From a virus: a stretch of 38,097 nt of DNA. The stretch spans positions 1-38,097 of IMG/VR virus record IMGVR_UViG_3300031963_000404; one strand, written 5' to 3'. A program made the translations under genes and the position numbers. Positions 10,196 through 35,996 of this stretch are shown here, piece by piece; position 1 is the first letter of the stretch; each line of letters opens with the position of its first letter. The notes under the pieces are model-generated. The model saw only the letters and a list, made by a program, of their open reading frames with translations. It was not told where the DNA came from and did no database searches.

Positions 10196-11076
10196 GTGCT
10201 CTCCTCCGTGAGTTTCAACCCGGCCGCAAGCGCGGCAGATTCCTTCGGGGTGCGGTACTGGGCGGGGCGGTACTGGTCGCGCCACACCTGCGGCTGCGGC
10301 TTCGCCTCGGTCCTGGCCCCCGGCGTGCGGTTCGTGCCGCCTCGGTCCTGCGAGCGAGTCAGCCAAGAGACGATGAACCGCCGCCAGTTGCTCTTGTGGG
10401 CCTTCGTCGGGTTGGCCTTAAGCCAAGCGGTCGCCCTGGCCAGTTCGGGCTCCAGATCGCACGCTGGGTAAGCCTGACGCCATTCCTGCCGGTCGGCGTC
10501 GGTGATCCCCTGCCACCCTGCGTCAGCAGACCACGACACGGAGTCGGCTGGCTGCGAGCGTGTCCGCCGCTTCGGCGGATCGCTCGTAGCTACCGGCGCA
10601 GCCGGTATGTCTTCTCTCTTATCTTGTCTTGTCTTATCTAGCGCAACAGTTACGCGTAACGGCTCCGTAACAGTTACGGTGTTACGCGCAACATCCTGTT
10701 TCGCCCGGTGTTTTCGCATTCTTTCGGCGGCGGTGGTGTCCTTGGCTGGCGTGTTCCACTGGCCAAAGTTGGGGAAAGTCAGGGTCTGGGCTGCCTCGTC
10801 CGCCTCGAGCCAGCCCGCTGACCGCATGGCGGACCCAAACCCTTCGATGCCGGCGATGTCGTCCAAATCCTCTGGGTAGGCGTTGGCCATCACCCCGTCT
10901 GCGGTGTGCTCGTTGACGGCGGCCCACACGGCGTGCAGGCCACCAACCACCAGCAGCCGCATCGAGTGGCGGGACAGCCCGCTGAACTCGTCGGCCAGGC
11001 CGATCGCTCGGGCCATCGCCGCCACCTTTGGGCAGGTAGTCAGGGCCGCTCGCATCTTGATCCAGTCACCGGCCAT
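10192..11076 (-). CDS. Replication initiator-like protein
   Basis: 294 residues. The start at 11076 gives MAGDWIKMRAALTTCPKV, the characteristic opening of phage replication proteins with an N-terminal winged helix, and GTGGAGG precedes it. The region up to about residue 100 (GWLEADEAAQTLTFPNF) is the winged helix. A basic linker (ERMRKHRAKQ) and a C-terminal part with WRRFIVSWL follow. It is likely to open the phage origin and recruit host helicase. The middle (about 10620-10700) has lower GC and is rich in TTAC/GTAAC repeats, a candidate origin inside the gene. Confidence 0.6.
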   Translation of the reverse strand: MAGDWIKMRAALTTCPKVAAMARAIGLADEFSGLSRHSMRLLVVGGLHAVWAAVNEHTADGVMANAYPEDLDDIAGIEGFGSAMRSAGWLEADEAAQTLTFPNFGQWNTPAKDTTAAERMRKHRAKQDVARNTVTVTEPLRVTVALDKTRQDKREDIPAAPVATSDPPKRRTRSQPADSVSWSADAGWQGITDADRQEWRQAYPACDLEPELARATAWLKANPTKAHKSNWRRFIVSWLTRSQDRGGTNRTPGARTEAKPQPQVWRDQYRPAQYRTPKESAALAAGLKLTEEST

Positions 11077-12391
11077 GCGTGGCCTCCACTTCTGCAATAC
11101 GCTTTCCAATCCATGCCATGACCGGCACCGCCATGCTGTTGCCCAGCGCCCTGTAGCGCGGGCCGTCAGAGGCAGGCTTTCCTCGGTACGTGACGTCCGT
11201 GTACCCGTCTGGAAAGCCTTGCAGCCGCTCGCACTCTTTCGGTGTCAGCCTGCGCACTGCCATGCCGTGCATGATGTGCATTGCGGCCTCTGTCTTCGGG
11301 TCGCTGTTGTTGCGGTGGTTGCTGCGAAGTGTTCCGATTGTTTCGCCGTCGCCGCACACAACACCTACGCCTTGATGGCTCCCATCGCTGTGCCCGCTCG
11401 CAGGCAGGCAATCAGTGCGGTCTCCGGTCATCCAAGCTGGCTGGTTGCTGTAGCCGCTGTAGGTGAAACCTTGGGCCACCACAGTCGTCGTGCTGGCCTC
11501 ACTCTGCCCCGGCTGCCGTGCTCGAAGCGGCACATGAACGTCGGTTGTCTTTGCTGCCTTGGTGGCTGGCGTGCCAAGAATGTCAAACGCCACGGCTGGC
11601 GGGTTCCCTCCGCTATTGCTGCCAATCTTTAACGGGGGCGAGAGGCCCGCAGGCGGGATGTTGTCGCATCGCGACTCGTTGCTGTAGATAGCGTGCGGCT
11701 CTGCGACAAGGTTGTAACACTCGTCCCCGGCTGGGCCTCCGGTTCCCTTGGCCCATTTGCTGCTGACATTTCCAGCGATGCCTTCAGGGCTGGAGGTAAT
11801 TCCTTGCCCCTTCGCTCCGCGCGTCGGAGGATTCCCGCGCAAGCTTTCGCGCTCAAAAAGTACCGCTGCTGCACATCGCCAATCTCGAGCGTGTGCGACA
11901 ACGAACACACGGCGACGTCGCTGGGCGACTCCAAACCATTGAGCGTCCAGAACTCGGTAGGCGAACCCATACCCGAGTTCTGCCAACGCCCCGAGGAAGG
12001 TGCCAAAGTCCCTTCCGCCCCTAGACGACAAGACTCCAGGGACGTTCTCCCAGACAACCCAATTGGGACGAAGGACGTCAACAAGCTGTACGAATCGCAG
12101 GGCCAAGTTGCCACGTGGGTCAGCCAATCCGCCACGCAGTCCTGCGACAGAAAAGGATTGGCATGGAGTTCCTCCGACCAGAAGGTCAATTGGGCCGTGC
12201 TCATTGAGTGTTTCCTGCGCGAGTTTTGTCATGTCGCCGACGTTCTTCAGTTTCCAATGGTGGTCAACCACTGCGGCCGGGAATGGCTCAATCTCTGAAG
12301 TCCAAGCACATTCCCAGCCGAGTGGCTGCCAAGCCACATGAGCCGCACCGATGCCGTCGCAAACGCTGGCGTACTTCATGTGGCTGCTCAT
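11066..12391 (-). CDS. C5-cytosine DNA methyltransferase
   Basis: 441 residues with the full motif order: motif I (ASVCDGIGAAHVAW), IV with the catalytic Cys (GGTPCQSFSVAG), VI (WENVPG), VIII (QRRRRVFVV), a long variable target-recognition region, IX (RRLTPKECERLQGFPDG) and X (YRALGNSMAVPVMAW). ATG 12391 is just behind the ParB-like stop. There is no accompanying restriction endonuclease, so it is an orphan enzyme that probably protects phage DNA. Confidence 0.92.
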   Translation of the reverse strand: MSSHMKYASVCDGIGAAHVAWQPLGWECAWTSEIEPFPAAVVDHHWKLKNVGDMTKLAQETLNEHGPIDLLVGGTPCQSFSVAGLRGGLADPRGNLALRFVQLVDVLRPNWVVWENVPGVLSSRGGRDFGTFLGALAELGYGFAYRVLDAQWFGVAQRRRRVFVVAHARDWRCAAAVLFERESLRGNPPTRGAKGQGITSSPEGIAGNVSSKWAKGTGGPAGDECYNLVAEPHAIYSNESRCDNIPPAGLSPPLKIGSNSGGNPPAVAFDILGTPATKAAKTTDVHVPLRARQPGQSEASTTTVVAQGFTYSGYSNQPAWMTGDRTDCLPASGHSDGSHQGVGVVCGDGETIGTLRSNHRNNSDPKTEAAMHIMHGMAVRRLTPKECERLQGFPDGYTDVTYRGKPASDGPRYRALGNSMAVPVMAWIGKRIAEVEATHGR

Positions 12392-12392
12392 G

Positions 12393-13220
12393 TCAGGCGA
12401 CAGCCTCCACTGCGATGTCGACGCGACTCTCGTCCCAGTCGAGGGCTTTTGAGCCGAGCCGGACGTTGTAGACCTTGTGAAAAGCGCGAGCGACGCCTTC
12501 ATCACGCGTCGTGCCACTCATCATCTTGAACGTGTCGCCATTTCCGATCAGCGAGTTAGGCGACTGCCGCTCCATCAGCCCTTGAAGCCGCTTTCGGTCC
12601 ACGTTGTCCCCGAATCGACGCAAGAAAAACGCAAGCCCACCGATCACGGCGCAGTGATAGGCAGTCTCGTGATGCTCTTGCCCCCACGTCCGACGCAACA
12701 TCGTCAGCACTTCAGTGACGTGAGCCGCGCCAGTCTCGCCACCACCCATTCGGCGGTACGCGGTCTGACACTGCTTGACGCCGCCGATGCTCTGCCGTCT
12801 GCCGTTGGGCTTCATCCCGCGAACATTCAGCCCAGCCTCAGTGATCGCTTCGTAGACAGCGACCGCATCCGGCTTTCCAGCGCACACGTCAGCCTTAAAC
12901 AGCTGGTGCGTGCTCAATCCGCGACGCTTGTTGAGCTTGCCGAACAACTCGGCCTCATGCTCCGCGCCGCGACTCTTGATGATCTGGCACGGCACATGAG
13001 CCACGCCGCGTTCCATCGCGGCATTCAGCCGCTGGAAGCCATCGACCGGGTGAAGGCTGCCATCATCCCGCTCGCCAGCGACGATGACACCGAATGCCTC
13101 CTCATCGAAGTTCTTAGCGATCCCGGCCACATGGGCCGCGATAGCCTCGCGCTGATACTCCTCATCAACTATCAAGTCTCCTACTGCCACCATCCTCACG
13201 TCAGGCTTATGCAAACGCAT
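12393..13220 (-). CDS. ParB/sulfiredoxin-fold protein
   Basis: 275 residues from ATG 13220, preceded by GAAAGG. The N-terminal half is ParB-like: VAVGDLIVDEEYQRE and then PVDGFQRLNAAMERG, the box that corresponds to the ParB nucleotide-binding loop. The C-terminal half is helical and family-specific (possibly DUF6551). In phages such proteins often sit beside DNA methyltransferases, as here, where the methyltransferase follows by one base. It may be a nuclease, a CTPase clamp or a regulator. There is no ParA gene, so plasmid-like partitioning is unlikely. Confidence 0.65.
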   Translation of the reverse strand: MRLHKPDVRMVAVGDLIVDEEYQREAIAAHVAGIAKNFDEEAFGVIVAGERDDGSLHPVDGFQRLNAAMERGVAHVPCQIIKSRGAEHEAELFGKLNKRRGLSTHQLFKADVCAGKPDAVAVYEAITEAGLNVRGMKPNGRRQSIGGVKQCQTAYRRMGGGETGAAHVTEVLTMLRRTWGQEHHETAYHCAVIGGLAFFLRRFGDNVDRKRLQGLMERQSPNSLIGNGDTFKMMSGTTRDEGVARAFHKVYNVRLGSKALDWDESRVDIAVEAVA

Positions 13221-28986: not shown

Positions 28987-29182
28987 GTCGCTTGCTCCTC
29001 TTGGGCGTGGCGTCTGCCGTCTCCGCCTCGGGCTCAACGGCGGCTGTCTCGATCAGTTGTTGCTGGCGATCCTCGACGGCCACGCCTTGGGCGAGCAGCT
29101 GCGTGGCGAGCCCGCCCGAGATCTCCGCGACCTGGCCCGATCGGTACGCACGCCACGACCGTACGAATTTGATTTTCTTCAT
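28943..29182 (-). CDS. Small protein before the connector (79 aa)
   Basis: It begins MKKIKFVRSWRAYRSGQVAE, followed by QLLAQGVAVED and an acidic then basic tail. Similar short proteins with a SWRAYRxGxVAE start sit beside connector genes in other phages, by my recollection. ATG 29182 overlaps the glycosyltransferase stop. Confidence 0.55.
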   Translation of the reverse strand: MKKIKFVRSWRAYRSGQVAEISGGLATQLLAQGVAVEDRQQQLIETAAVEPEAETADATPKRSKRRAVPKPGPSDAARR

Positions 29183-29946
29183 TCCCCCACACTCCATGCA
29201 GTTTCGGGCTTCTTCATCGTGTTGCAGTACTCAGTGGCGTGCTGATACACGGGCTTTCCCAAGTCTTTGCCGGGCCATGTGAAAACGTATTCGCCGTGGC
29301 CGATACACACCCGTGGCGTGACAAACACGCGGTTGCCGCTCTCTCGCCAGTTGACCCAAAACGCTATGTCAGAGTCGCGCCGTGGCCGCCAGTTAGGGTC
29401 GCCAGGAGTCTTTGGCTCTTCGTCCCAGGTGCCGTCGCTGTTTGGCAGTTCCTGCATCCAAGGCAGCTTGCACCGCTTCAGGGCGGCCGTGCTCAGGATG
29501 GTGCATCCGAAGTGTGCCGTGTCCACCTCCTGAACGGGTTCGGCAAACCACGACATCGGCAGCTTAGTCTTTCCTTCATCCGGCGGATTCTCCAGCGTGC
29601 CCGGCAGCGTGAGCATCGGGCGGCCGTCCTCACGCTTTGTCTGGAGCGGGGCCAAGGCGTCGCACTGAAACGTCATCGCCATTGCGAATAACTGCTCCAG
29701 ATCGGCCCGGCTGAACGCGCTGTCGTAATCGACCACCAGCAGATACTCGGCCTTGTCAAGGAAATTTTGGCAGACACGCGACAGGCATTGAGACCAGAAG
29801 GCTCCCTGCATCATCGTGGGGCGGATACCCAGCGGCATCAGCGCCTGAGCCCACGTGTAGAAGTTCGACATGAACCCGAGCCGTGGAACACTCATGACGC
29901 ATTCCACGCGAATGTCACACTCAGTGGAACCTACCTTGACGATCAT
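29179..29946 (-). CDS. Family-2-like glycosyltransferase in the head operon
   Basis: 255 residues from ATG 29946 (TTGGAGT upstream). GT-A landmarks are AEYLLVVDYDSAFSRADLEQ (metal site DYD), CDALAPLQTKR, VDTAHFGCTILSTAALK and SDIAFWVNWRESGNRVF near an IGHGE end. It sits between the capsid terminator and the connector genes, an odd place for such an enzyme. Glycosylation of a virion protein is a reasonable hypothesis. Confidence 0.75.
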   Translation of the reverse strand: MIVKVGSTECDIRVECVMSVPRLGFMSNFYTWAQALMPLGIRPTMMQGAFWSQCLSRVCQNFLDKAEYLLVVDYDSAFSRADLEQLFAMAMTFQCDALAPLQTKREDGRPMLTLPGTLENPPDEGKTKLPMSWFAEPVQEVDTAHFGCTILSTAALKRCKLPWMQELPNSDGTWDEEPKTPGDPNWRPRRDSDIAFWVNWRESGNRVFVTPRVCIGHGEYVFTWPGKDLGKPVYQHATEYCNTMKKPETAWSVGE

Positions 29947-29956
29947 GCGTGACTCC

Positions 29957-29997
29957 AAAAAGAGAGCGGGCGGCCCCCGCTTGGAAGCCGCCCGCTC
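29957..29997 (-). terminator. Rho-independent terminator after the capsid gene
   Basis: On the minus strand GAGCGGGCGG (29997-29988) and CCGCCCGCTC (29973-29964) form a perfect 10-bp stem with a 14-base loop, followed by CTCTTTTT (to 29957). It is 30 bases past the capsid stop. It would make capsid mRNA more abundant than the downstream head-tail mRNA. Confidence 0.85.
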
Positions 29998-30026
29998 AGA
30001 GTCGCACATCAGTCAAGCCGTCAGGC

Positions 30027-32225: not shown

Positions 32226-33507
32226 TGGTCTGGCCCTCCTGCTCGGCCTGGTCTTCTGTGTCGTCTTCGGGCAAATCCTCTACTTCCGCGACGGGCGCGG
32301 GCATCGGCTCCGGTGCGGGCGGCTCTTGGCCCATCTTGTCGAGCGTTGTCATGTTCAGCTGCACGAAATGCTTGTCACCCTCTGGCCCGATCGGGTTCAG
32401 GTTCTCAAGCTCGCGGATTTCGTTCACAGTCATCCAGCCGTTTTGCAAAGCCGAGACGTAGTAGGCCGAGCGTGCGGCGTGATCAGCCCGAAGAATCCCA
32501 CTCACCGCGTGCTCGGCAAAATACTTCTCGTCGTCAACGATCAGGTCGCGGGCGATTGCCGCCTCCCACCGCTTCAGGTGCGGCAGCAGGCAGTGCTGGA
32601 GAAATTCAACCGACTGCGTTTCGATATTTGAAAAACTCGACCGCGACAGATCCTGAATCAGATGGGGCGGCACTCTGAAGATTCGGCAGCACTCGATCAC
32701 GGCGAACTGCCGGCTCTCAAGCATCTGGGCACTCTCGTTGCTGCCGCTGAGCTCGTGGGCCTTCACTCCGTTTGGAAGCACGGCAGTCCGATGGGCACGA
32801 TCCGGCCCACGGTGCATCCGTTCCCATTGCTCACGGAGACGCTCGGCGGCCTCTGCCGGAATCGGGTTGTCGCTCTCAAGGATCACGCCCGGCCGAGCGC
32901 CGGAACCGAAGTACGTGGCCGCGTGCGTCTCAAGAGCCTGCGAAAGGCCGATCACGTTCTGGAACAGCTTGTAGGTTGGGATCGGCTTGATGCCGTCCTC
33001 GGTCGTGAACCGCAGGGCGAAGATTTGATCCTGGCTGTAGATCGTCTGCTTGCCGCTGGGCTCGCGGTACTTGTATCGCAGCGTGCCGTCCTCGAGCCGC
33101 TCGGCCTCCATGCGGCTGGAGTGCAGCGGCCAGAGCTCGGAGACGGCACCTCGGGCACCTGGGCGGATCTCGGCGTACGACGCACCGTAGTGCAGATACA
33201 TGCCCGTCATCCAATCCCTAAACTCCTGAGCCGTCTGCCACGGGTTGGGTTGCTGGTGCAGGAGCCGATAGACGGGATGAGCGGTAGCCTTCGCCTTGCC
33301 GCCGTTGGCCATCCGCTCGTAGACGTGCAGCGGCAGGGCTGAGACTGCATCCGATATGACGCGGATGCAGGCCGTGTACGCAGAGCATGCCATCGAGTTG
33401 TCGGCGGTGACGCGAATGCCGGCTGGCGTGCGGGTGCCGCTGGACTCGGTCCAGTCGATGCCACGCAAATCGAGCATTTTGAAGTCGGCGGCGGCGTTTT
33501 CACTCAT
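32215..33507 (-). CDS. Portal protein, HK97 family
   Basis: 430 residues. Family landmarks are YTACIRVISDAVSALPLHVY, HPVYRLLHQQPNPWQTAQEF, ELWPLHSSRMEAERLEDG, and RVPPHLIQDLSRSSFSNIET. It forms the dodecameric DNA entry ring. ATG 33507 overlaps the terminase stop (ATGA). Confidence 0.92.
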   Translation of the reverse strand: MSENAAADFKMLDLRGIDWTESSGTRTPAGIRVTADNSMACSAYTACIRVISDAVSALPLHVYERMANGGKAKATAHPVYRLLHQQPNPWQTAQEFRDWMTGMYLHYGASYAEIRPGARGAVSELWPLHSSRMEAERLEDGTLRYKYREPSGKQTIYSQDQIFALRFTTEDGIKPIPTYKLFQNVIGLSQALETHAATYFGSGARPGVILESDNPIPAEAAERLREQWERMHRGPDRAHRTAVLPNGVKAHELSGSNESAQMLESRQFAVIECCRIFRVPPHLIQDLSRSSFSNIETQSVEFLQHCLLPHLKRWEAAIARDLIVDDEKYFAEHAVSGILRADHAARSAYYVSALQNGWMTVNEIRELENLNPIGPEGDKHFVQLNMTTLDKMGQEPPAPEPMPAPVAEVEDLPEDDTEDQAEQEGQTNGN

Positions 33508-35155
33508 AGCGTCATGATGTCCCAGGATTGTTCTGGCGGCGGTGCCGTTGCTGTGGCGTGCAGGCCCAGGCCCATGACGAGAGCCACTATGCCGTCGATC
33601 CGCTCGGTGCTCTTAGCCTTGCTGCATTTCATGTTGCCCTGGTGGTCGGTCTGCACCGCCACGTTGGCGGCCATCCAACTCAGCACCGGGTGATTTGCGT
33701 GCCGTATCCGCTCCGACAGCACGAGCGTCTCGAGCTGGCGGCAAGGGCTCGTCATGCTGGCAAACCCTTGCCCGTACCCTGCCACATTTAGCCCATCGCC
33801 TTGCAGTTGCGTGGCCAGTTGCGTGGCGTTCCAGCGGTCGATTCCGATCTGCCGGATGTTGTATTGCTTGGCCAGTTCGTTGATGTCTCGCCTGATTACG
33901 TCGTAGTCAGTGACGTTTCCATCCGTGGCACGGATAAAGCCGTCACGAATCCAGCCGACGTAGTCCACTTTGTCCCGCAGCGTCCGCTCGGCTGCGTGTA
34001 CCTCTGGCACCCAGAAGAACGGCAGCACGTCGAAGGTGCCGTCGCTGGACTGGCTCACGAGCACCAGCGCCGACAGGTCCGTGGTGCTGGCCAAATCGAG
34101 TCCCGCAAACCACTCCCGCTTCTCTAGGTCAGAGTCGATCGGGTTGCCGCACTTGGCCCATGCGTCTGGGGCAATCCACCGCGTGTCCTGAGTGGTCCAG
34201 ACATTGAGCCTGTATCGCAAAAAGGCGTTCAGCTTGCTGGGCGACTGATCCGCTTCGCGGGCGTCGGCAGCGAAAGACTCCTCGGTGATCGTCTGGCCTA
34301 GCGACGGGTTCGCCTTGTGCCACGTCTTTGGGTCTTTCCAATCGTCTTCCGGCGAGGCGGCATAGATGCAGCCGAAGAAGGCCGGGTCCACTGCCGGATC
34401 GGCTATGCAACGCTCTGCGTACTGGTGCTGCTCCCAACAGATGCTCTTGCGGTCGAAGCCCGCCGTGGTGATCGATAACAGCATTGGTGATCTCCGAGCC
34501 GCCCCGCCGTACCTGAGTGCATCTCTTGTTGTGCCGGGCCTTCGCCCCCAGCCTCTCGGCCAGGGGCGAAAGCCCAGAGGCGGCGGTCTCTTTGTGCATG
34601 GAGTTCATCAAAGAGCAGGGCGTGGATGTTGAGGCCCTCGGCCCGGAACGCATCAGCCGAGAGAACCCGGTAAAACGAATTGCTCGCCTTATGCACGATG
34701 GTCTTGCGGCTGTCGATCACCTCGAGGTGGCGAGACAACGCAGGCGAAGCCCGCACCATTGACGCGGCCTCGCGGTAGATGATGCCTGCCTGCTCACGAT
34801 CCGCAGCCGCCGAATAGCACTCAGCACCAGGCTCAGAGTCGAAGGCCGTCAGATAGAGGGCGATGCCGGCAAGTGTGGTGCTCTTGCCTTGCTTCTTCGG
34901 CAGCTCAATGTACCCAACACGATGCTGCCGCGTGCCGTCAGGGTTCAGCCGGCCGAAGAGCTCACGCAGCACATGATGCTGCCACGGCAACAGCGTGAAC
35001 GGCTTGCCGGCGTTCTGGCCTTTGCTGTGCCGCAGCACCTTCTCGAAGAAGGCCACGACGCGCTCGTACTTCGCCTGGCCCTCGGGCGTCAGCTCACGCG
35101 CCGTGGACGCGGAAGAAGTCTTCGACTTCGTCGCTGGGCTTTTCTTCTTTGCCAC
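33504..35155 (-). CDS. terL: Large terminase subunit, frame interrupted by a 50-nt hairpin insert
   Basis: The ATPase part (codons 1-194, 35155-34574) has Walker A at IELPKKQGKSTT and Walker B at HALLFDELHAQ, then RDRRLW. The frame then passes into a 50-nt segment (34573-34524) and is lost. Translation resumes at GAT 34523 in another frame with DALRYGGAARRSPMLL and runs to 33504, including the nuclease aspartate in WFAGLDLASTTD. Removing the 50 nt gives 533 residues with W-D adjacent, as in terminases of this type. GTG 35155 is the likely start. Without bypass, a frameshift or a correction of the sequence the gene would be broken. Confidence 0.85.
34534..34577 (-). other. Twenty-base-pair hairpin inside the terminase gene
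   Basis: In minus-strand RNA, 34577-34558 pairs with 34553-34534 without a break (20 bp, four of them G-U), capped by GAGA, a GNRA tetraloop (34557-34554). The central 16 bp (34573-34558 with 34553-34538) make up 36 of the 50 inserted bases; the stem base reaches into the TGG codon before the gap. CCGGCACAACAAGA (34537-34524) is the rest of the insert. Confidence 0.85.
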
Positions 35156-35678: not shown

Positions 35679-35996
35679 TCACTTTCCGTTTCGCACGCGC
35701 TCGCGTGCCGTCTTGCGGTTGTGACATGCGTGGCAACGTGCCGCACCATTGGCAACGTCATACCTATCGCCGCCTTGAGTGATCGGCACGACGTGGTCAG
35801 CGTGAAGATTTGTAGCAACTCGCCCGCAATCCACGCATTGCCAGTCGCACTTGGTCAGCACCGCTTGACGCCACAGCTTGTGGGCTTTGCTGCAGTAGCC
35901 TCGGGCCGCAGCGCTGGGCCTGGCCGAGTCGTCTTGCTTTGGCCCGGCGGCAGTGCGCAACCGCAGCGGCCTGTGGCTTGGTATCCGAGTGGGCAT
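35679..35996 (-). CDS. HNH endonuclease next to the terminase
   Basis: 105 residues with CVDCGRVATNLHADHVVPI and ARCHACHNRKTA, the beta-beta-alpha metal site with two CxxC pairs. In HK97-type phages an HNH protein beside terminase is needed for cos cleavage, so this gene probably works with both terminase subunits. ATG 35996 lies five bases after the previous stop. Confidence 0.85.
   Translation of the reverse strand: MPTRIPSHRPLRLRTAAGPKQDDSARPSAAARGYCSKAHKLWRQAVLTKCDWQCVDCGRVATNLHADHVVPITQGGDRYDVANGAARCHACHNRKTARERVRNGK

Follow-up and report, generated by a model that had tools for sequence, protein, structure and literature searches.

Hairpin insertions in phage terminase genes suggest a widespread mobile element that ribosomes would jump over

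To our knowledge, efficient translational bypass of a long gap has been established in one phage gene, gene 60 of T4, and in one yeast mitochondrion. In T4, the ribosome slides processively over distances of up to 56 nt, with a drop at longer ones (PMC11194080), and protection from a homing endonuclease has been proposed as a role for the gene 60 element (PMC5009743). The latter source describes the byp elements of Magnusiomyces capitatus mitochondria as occurring in many copies and at many sites, as tolerating imperfect landing codons and as depending little on context (PMC5009743), and it mentions a suspected terminase bypass, with a possible regulatory role, in Streptomyces phage Hau3 and a related prophage (PMC5009743). 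A search of the open-access literature turned up reports of such elements only for T4, for yeast mitochondria and, as a suspicion, for the Hau3 terminase. The insertions described here, the first of them in the large terminase gene (terL) of an environmental phage, resemble T4 gene 60 in having a gap of about 50 nt and a putative take-off codon in the 5' side of a tetraloop hairpin. In T4, the GGA take-off codon lies within a UUCG-capped stem, which is the same layout, and bypass there involves a stem-loop in the A site.

The window, that is, the whole stretch of 38,097 nt that was analyzed, is an IMG/VR virus contig in which the gene for the small terminase subunit (terS) stands before terL, and portal, protease and capsid genes follow it. 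The window also holds a gene for a C-5 cytosine-specific DNA methylase (11066-12517, minus strand). Read on the minus strand, terL runs CGC CGC CTC TGG, is followed by 50 nt, and resumes with GAT (34523-34521) GCA CTC AGG TAC; after the 50 nt the gene continues as GAT plus DALRYGGAARRSP, with the frame changed. The features of the interrupted gene are as follows.

34574..35155, minus strand: 5' half of terL, 194 codons with a GTG start, encoding the TerL ATPase with Walker A and Walker B (ORF 34403-35155)
34574..34576, minus strand: inferred take-off codon TGG (Trp) at the stem base, assigned from the sequence and the like geometry at other sites
34535..34576, minus strand: take-off hairpin, 19 bp including TGG, with a GAGA loop at 34557-34554, assigned from the fold and from pair counts on relatives
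34524..34573, minus strand: non-coding gap of 50 nt, a class A element; uninterrupted relatives are without it and read RRLWDALRYGG
34527..34534, minus strand: A/C-rich unpaired 3' tail from the hairpin to the landing triplet, its letters and length varying among relatives
34524..34526, minus strand: landing-position triplet AGA (an Arg codon), read from the sequence
33504..34523, minus strand: remainder of terL from the resume codon GAT to its 3' end, 339 codons and a stop, encoding the TerL nuclease (Pfam PF20441, 1.5e-44)

The upstream ORF matches Pfam TerL_ATPase (PF03354, 2e-16), and joining the two parts gives 194 + 339 = 533 residues, the right length. An earlier sequence-only reading had described an insert of exactly 50 nt, mostly one hairpin, that splits terL between codons, and direct reading of the minus strand agrees; the 533-residue terminase expected on joining is likewise borne out by the codon counts and by the Pfam ATPase and nuclease halves. 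The GAGA-capped stem, given there as 20 bp, comprises 19 bp (34576-34558 pairing with 34553-34535), or 20 bp if the outer C34577-G34534 pair is counted. It was also correct for the window copy that no stop follows the take-off codon and that AGA precedes the landing point; indeed, no stop codon is present anywhere within this class A gap. The 121-nt RNA context folds at -64.1 kcal/mol (z = -5.1; 0/200 shuffles equally stable), and the hairpin is the strongest inverted repeat within the 38-kb window. The identical 50 nt was found in contigs of other samples (L002, L003, L004), which makes it very unlikely that a base was missed or the assembly is wrong.

A scan with the C-terminal half of terL gave 325 relatives, of which 80 were kept, and pattern scans enlarged class A to ~ 46 contigs with 23 distinct gap records. 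This search of TerL homologues, which had been proposed as a check, recovered the same insert, diverged forms of it and uninterrupted versions. At the site-A junction, a given contig carries the window's insert, a diverged insert or the uninterrupted RRLWDALRYGG. Insertion sites were located by comparing uninterrupted terL proteins with every locus and by a hairpin scan of all loci with follow-up. Counted by contig from the scan tables, ~ 77 IMG/VR contigs carry an element. Ten sites were identified, of which nine are in terL and the tenth lies in a second gene, and uninterrupted homologues exist for every one. The 45 gap records comprise 43 distinct records at eight terL sites, plus site G (L147) and site H (L087), and gap length over all sites is 45-52 nt. 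The sites are listed below with the flanking residues, the putative take-off codon and landing triplet, the gap length and the occupancy; all window positions are on the minus strand.

Site A: RRLW / DAL; TGG to AGA, CGC, CGA or TGA; 50, 51 or 52 nt; filled in the window
Site B1: EGL / NIH; CTG to CTG or CTA; 50, 48 or 45 nt; filled in 15 contigs; window 34630..34631, empty
Site B2: DEL / HAQ; CTG to CTG; 50 nt; filled in L005, L083, L086, L088 and L092; window 34600..34601, empty
Site C: RYR / LNVW; CGG to CGG; 47 nt; filled in L046, L072, L077 and L176; window 34208..34209, empty
Site D: IEL / PKK; CTG to CTT; 52 nt; in the P-loop stretch
Site E: ADR / EQA; CGG to CGA; 46 nt; filled in L076, L078, L079, L080 and L169; window 34795..34796, empty
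Site F1: PKKN / GKS; AAT to ATC; 46 nt; in the P-loop stretch
Site F2: PKKNG / KST; GGT to GGC; 46 nt; in the P-loop stretch
Site G: IELP / KKN; CCG to CTG; 52 nt; L147; in the P-loop stretch
Sites D, G, F1 and F2 together: window P-loop stretch 34885..34901, all empty; the intein site of relatives, GK/ST, adjoins
Site H, second gene: GAFW / SQVN; TGG to TGG; 50 nt; filled in L087 (reverse strand, ~ 5125); window 29793..29794, empty

The gene with site H corresponds to window ORF 29179-30009, which follows the capsid gene and is glycosyltransferase-like by eye; the window and > 40 other homologous loci have this gene without interruption. Two elements can occur in one contig, as in L098 (sites A and B1) and L087 (terL and the second gene). 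The UUCG-type hairpin pattern matched 14 contigs out of 2.9 million, all at B1 or B2. No close copy of the element was found in cultured phages, and Rfam returned no match above the gathering score, only a chance SNORD10 (E 0.6).

The nearest cellular relatives found are terL genes of Planctomycetota prophages (up to 57% identity), and the phage hosts are, on this basis, probably Planctomycetota. These prophage genes have no such insert, and the hairpin core pattern is absent from 392 Planctomycetota genomes. Since bL9 restrains ribosome hopping in E. coli, loss of host bL9 was considered as an explanation and was rejected, bL9 being present in 13/13 Planctomycetota genomes.

Each gap contains one stem of about 18-22 bp with a loop of mostly 4-5 nt (GAGA, UUCG, GAAA, UAAC). 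The hairpin starts with the putative take-off codon (TGG, CTG, CGG, CCG, GGT or AAT, at the stem base) or with its last base, and is followed by a tail of ~ 2-10 nt and then by the landing triplet. For classes A and E taken together, whose hairpins have a common core although the sites differ, 98.7% of pair cells form, and covariation was 0.194 compared with 0.166 after shuffling (0/500 as high) and at most 0.104 in slid controls. For B1, B2 and C, 96.9% were paired, with covariation of 0.328 compared with 0.144 after shuffling (0/500 as high). The observed covariation exceeds every slid control and all 500 shuffles. In L166 both arms are altered together, GGGTCTT/AAGACCC in place of GGGCTTT/AAGGCCC. 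Within the stems, read in the mRNA sense, G-U pairs are frequent and A-C pairs are absent, indicating that the structure is maintained in the mRNA strand.

Upstream of the B1 take-off codon, a 5' stem-loop, CTGAGTGC-TGAC-GCATTCAG, is clear in 8/8 B1 contexts; it is not evident at A, C and E. Upstream of B1, diverged terL genes (those of L040, L045, L082, L084, L089, L098, L136 and L137) are identical over 30 nt or more, AGTGCTGACGCATTCAGAGCCGAGGGACTG, and this block forms an 8-bp 5' stem-loop. At no site does a stop codon directly adjoin the take-off codon, and UGA is the second codon after take-off in B2 and some B1 copies and the sixth in most A copies and in E. By inspection, the peptides upstream of the sites have nothing obvious in common.

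At 7/10 sites (B1, B2, C, D, E, F2 and H), take-off codon and landing triplet begin with the same two bases, for which the chance is about 1/16 per site and p is about 4e-7 if the triplets were random. At F1, with AAT to ATC, and at G, with CCG to CTG, only two of three bases agree, and the landing at site A is unmatched. The site A triplet is an Arg codon in 22/23 distinct class A records and TGA in one (L110), and tRNA-Trp would pair with its middle G at most. Because class E, with the same core, goes from CGG to CGA, the Arg triplet of site A may be an inheritance from an element that moved off an Arg site; matching of Trp to Trp exists in the same phage group, at site H. The UGA landing triplet of L110 (~ 3070) argues against a translated Arg codon, unless it is an error. 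A 3-bp target duplication is another possible source of the codon identity at the two ends, but drift restricted to the third base would not then be expected on a discarded copy.

Taken together, the terL insert is most likely a translational bypass element belonging to a mobile family in phages, a reading favored by a gap size, stem-base geometry and tetraloops that are as in T4 gene 60 and by the codon identity at 7/10 sites. Bypass had been put forward as a candidate from the window alone, and the comparative data, with ten sites in two genes, strongly favor it. Ribosomes would read terL up to the codon at the base of the very stable hairpin and would stall there, the stem-loop having come to lie at, or within, the A site. 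Codon-anticodon pairing would be lost, the ribosome would slide across the 45-52-nt gap, and translation would restart just past the landing triplet, which lies beyond the short unpaired tail that follows the hairpin. The predicted product is a full-length terminase.

The other explanations differ in how much of these data they accommodate. That the insertions inactivate terL, so that the contigs represent dead or decaying alleles, would account for a broken frame in a gene that is intact in close relatives, and a gene-killing palindromic insertion had been named as an alternative at the outset. However, the downstream frame is intact to the normal stop in 66/66 class A loci, and dN/dS of the class A downstream parts is 0.141 compared with 0.146 for uninterrupted genes, a rough comparison as dS is near saturation in many pairs. 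Open frames and low dN/dS together exclude decay. Purifying selection goes on, the hairpins themselves are constrained, and interrupted alleles predominate in some clades (27/29 rows in one); with ~ 77 contigs carrying such hairpins, the dead minority variant that had been set out as a refuting case is also weak, and inactivation is hardly credible. A programmed frameshift or stop readthrough giving an in-frame insert of ~ 15-17 residues is just as hard to credit. The 51-nt class A gaps, which are in frame except for one UGA in the loop, suit this idea, but site A gaps of 50, 51 and 52 nt cover all three residue classes, the 50- and 52-nt forms of sister alleles shifting the frame oppositely, and B1 gaps measure 50, 48 and 45 nt. 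Since the W-then-D outcome is constant, no single frameshift or readthrough serves; moreover, the variation tracks base pairing rather than codons, and there is no slippery site in common. The related suggestion of a 17-residue in-frame insert with a missed G is weakened by the sharing of the sequence among other samples. It is very unlikely that two terminase polypeptides are made, with a stop in the gap and a restart after it, and then reassemble: the loop UGA of 19/23 class A records would provide the stop, yet the gap is without one in four class A records, the window's included, and beyond the gap the class A loci have no conserved start codon in frame. In addition, many sites lie within the ATPase domain, the P-loop among them, and in the nuclease part, where splits would rarely all work.

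The main rival to bypass, in itself unlikely, is removal of the hairpin from the mRNA by a novel small intron, for example by cutting at the stem base and ligation, after which the joined message would be read normally. Splicing accounts equally well for the free frame, for the conservation of the RNA stem and, through a 3-bp target duplication, for the duplicated codons, and at site A it does not require a landing codon for Trp. Against it, the ends have no conserved nucleotides across sites, the distance of the cut from the stem base could not be the same at all sites, and no Rfam family was matched. Third-base changes keep codon identity (CTG/CTA, CTG/CTT, CGG/CGA, GGT/GGC), which is what bypass predicts, and we know of no bacterial machinery that splices hairpins of 45-52 nt. 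From these comparisons we infer ribosomal bypass and not RNA removal. A further proposal, about as doubtful as splicing, keeps bypass and changes its product: the site A jump would begin earlier, at Arg CGC (to CGC, CGA or AGA) or at Asp GAC (to GAC or GAT), deleting LW or RRLWD. In its favor, all of class A has the upstream CGC, nearly every record has an Arg codon as the landing triplet, and the Asp codons match in all class A records. Against it, uninterrupted homologues conserve LW, CTC remains Leu even though its CT is unpaired, and the tRNA for CGC does not read AGA. The tRNA-Asp jump from GAC to GAT, which had been raised in the sequence-only reading, is weak, as it deletes RRLWD and goes against the stem-base geometry of the other sites. 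A jump at site A from Gly GGC (before the UGA) to a GGN landing was tried as well; it fits most of class A and is refuted by L129 (GAG) and L133 (GCA).

The proposed bypass elements appear to move. In a tree of 108 downstream proteins, 17 changes are required to explain where class A is present, 12 or more of them on well-supported branches, and close relatives differ in which site is filled; the downstream proteins of L004 (site A filled) and L005 (site B2 filled) are identical. L005 and the window have 98-100% identity in terS, in the two end portions of terL and in a large part of the portal gene, compared with 73-93% over ~ 400 bp (about 34950-34480), where L005 has A empty and B2 filled. 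This tract is the footprint of gene conversion or recombination, with the element and its flanks moving together, and we infer homing-like gene conversion as the mode of spread. The HNH gene by terS (window 35679-35996, minus strand) was considered as the mobilizer and rejected. It occurs in most element-bearing and element-free relatives alike and, being present with and without hairpin elements, is probably the usual packaging-associated HNH. Inteins occupy the terL P-loop (GK/ST) in L061 (730-1743), L147 (~ 580 onward), L142 and L133; the L061 intein keeps LAGLIDADG-like motifs, that of L133 resembles a mini-intein, and in L147 a bypass-like hairpin precedes the intein by a few codons. As sites D, F and G adjoin the GK/ST inteins, a protective role against a homing endonuclease would be a reasonable idea, and the elements may guard the gene from inteins or homing endonucleases aimed at the same ATPase motifs. 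The broader proposal, that these elements form a populous mobile class in bacterial viruses that spreads by homing-like conversion among sites in terL and other genes, uses no common nascent peptide and in its commonest class lands unmatched, is put forward as probable, with less assurance than bypass itself.

The data suggest a widespread mobile element that ribosomes would jump over. If this is true, the 45 records at ten sites, together with empty-site alleles in near-identical phages, form a natural set that would reveal what bypass requires of hairpin, tail and landing codon, whether such elements count as independent mobile elements, and how many seemingly broken genes of viral metagenomes are in fact intact. 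Beyond the gap and the hairpin layout, T4 gene 60 and the elements described here both are inserts within an otherwise intact essential phage gene. An identical or synonymous landing codon (GGA in T4, 7/10 sites here) is also common to the two, several copies here have, like T4, a stop codon soon after take-off, and the 5' stem-loop of gene 60 has a counterpart at site B1. There is a link to mobile DNA in both cases, in T4 through the homing endonuclease MobA, whereas no dedicated homing endonuclease was identified here. The stem is 10 bp in T4 and about 18-22 bp here; many sites in two genes are used here, unlike in T4; the T4 landing is matched, whereas three sites here, the window's included, are mismatched; and T4 bypass depends on the nascent peptide, whereas no common nascent-peptide signal was seen here. 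The Magnusiomyces capitatus byp elements share with those studied here the many copies at many sites, the imperfect landing and the slight dependence on context; they belong, however, to a yeast mitochondrion with another ribosome, while the present elements are those of a bacterial virus and have far more stable hairpins. The Hau3 case concerns the same gene, but its gap is described as much shorter and as tied to a UUA codon (PMC5009743). Terminase inteins and homing introns likewise lie in conserved ATPase motifs and are patchily distributed; unlike them, the hairpins described here are 45-52 nt long, encode nothing and are out of frame.
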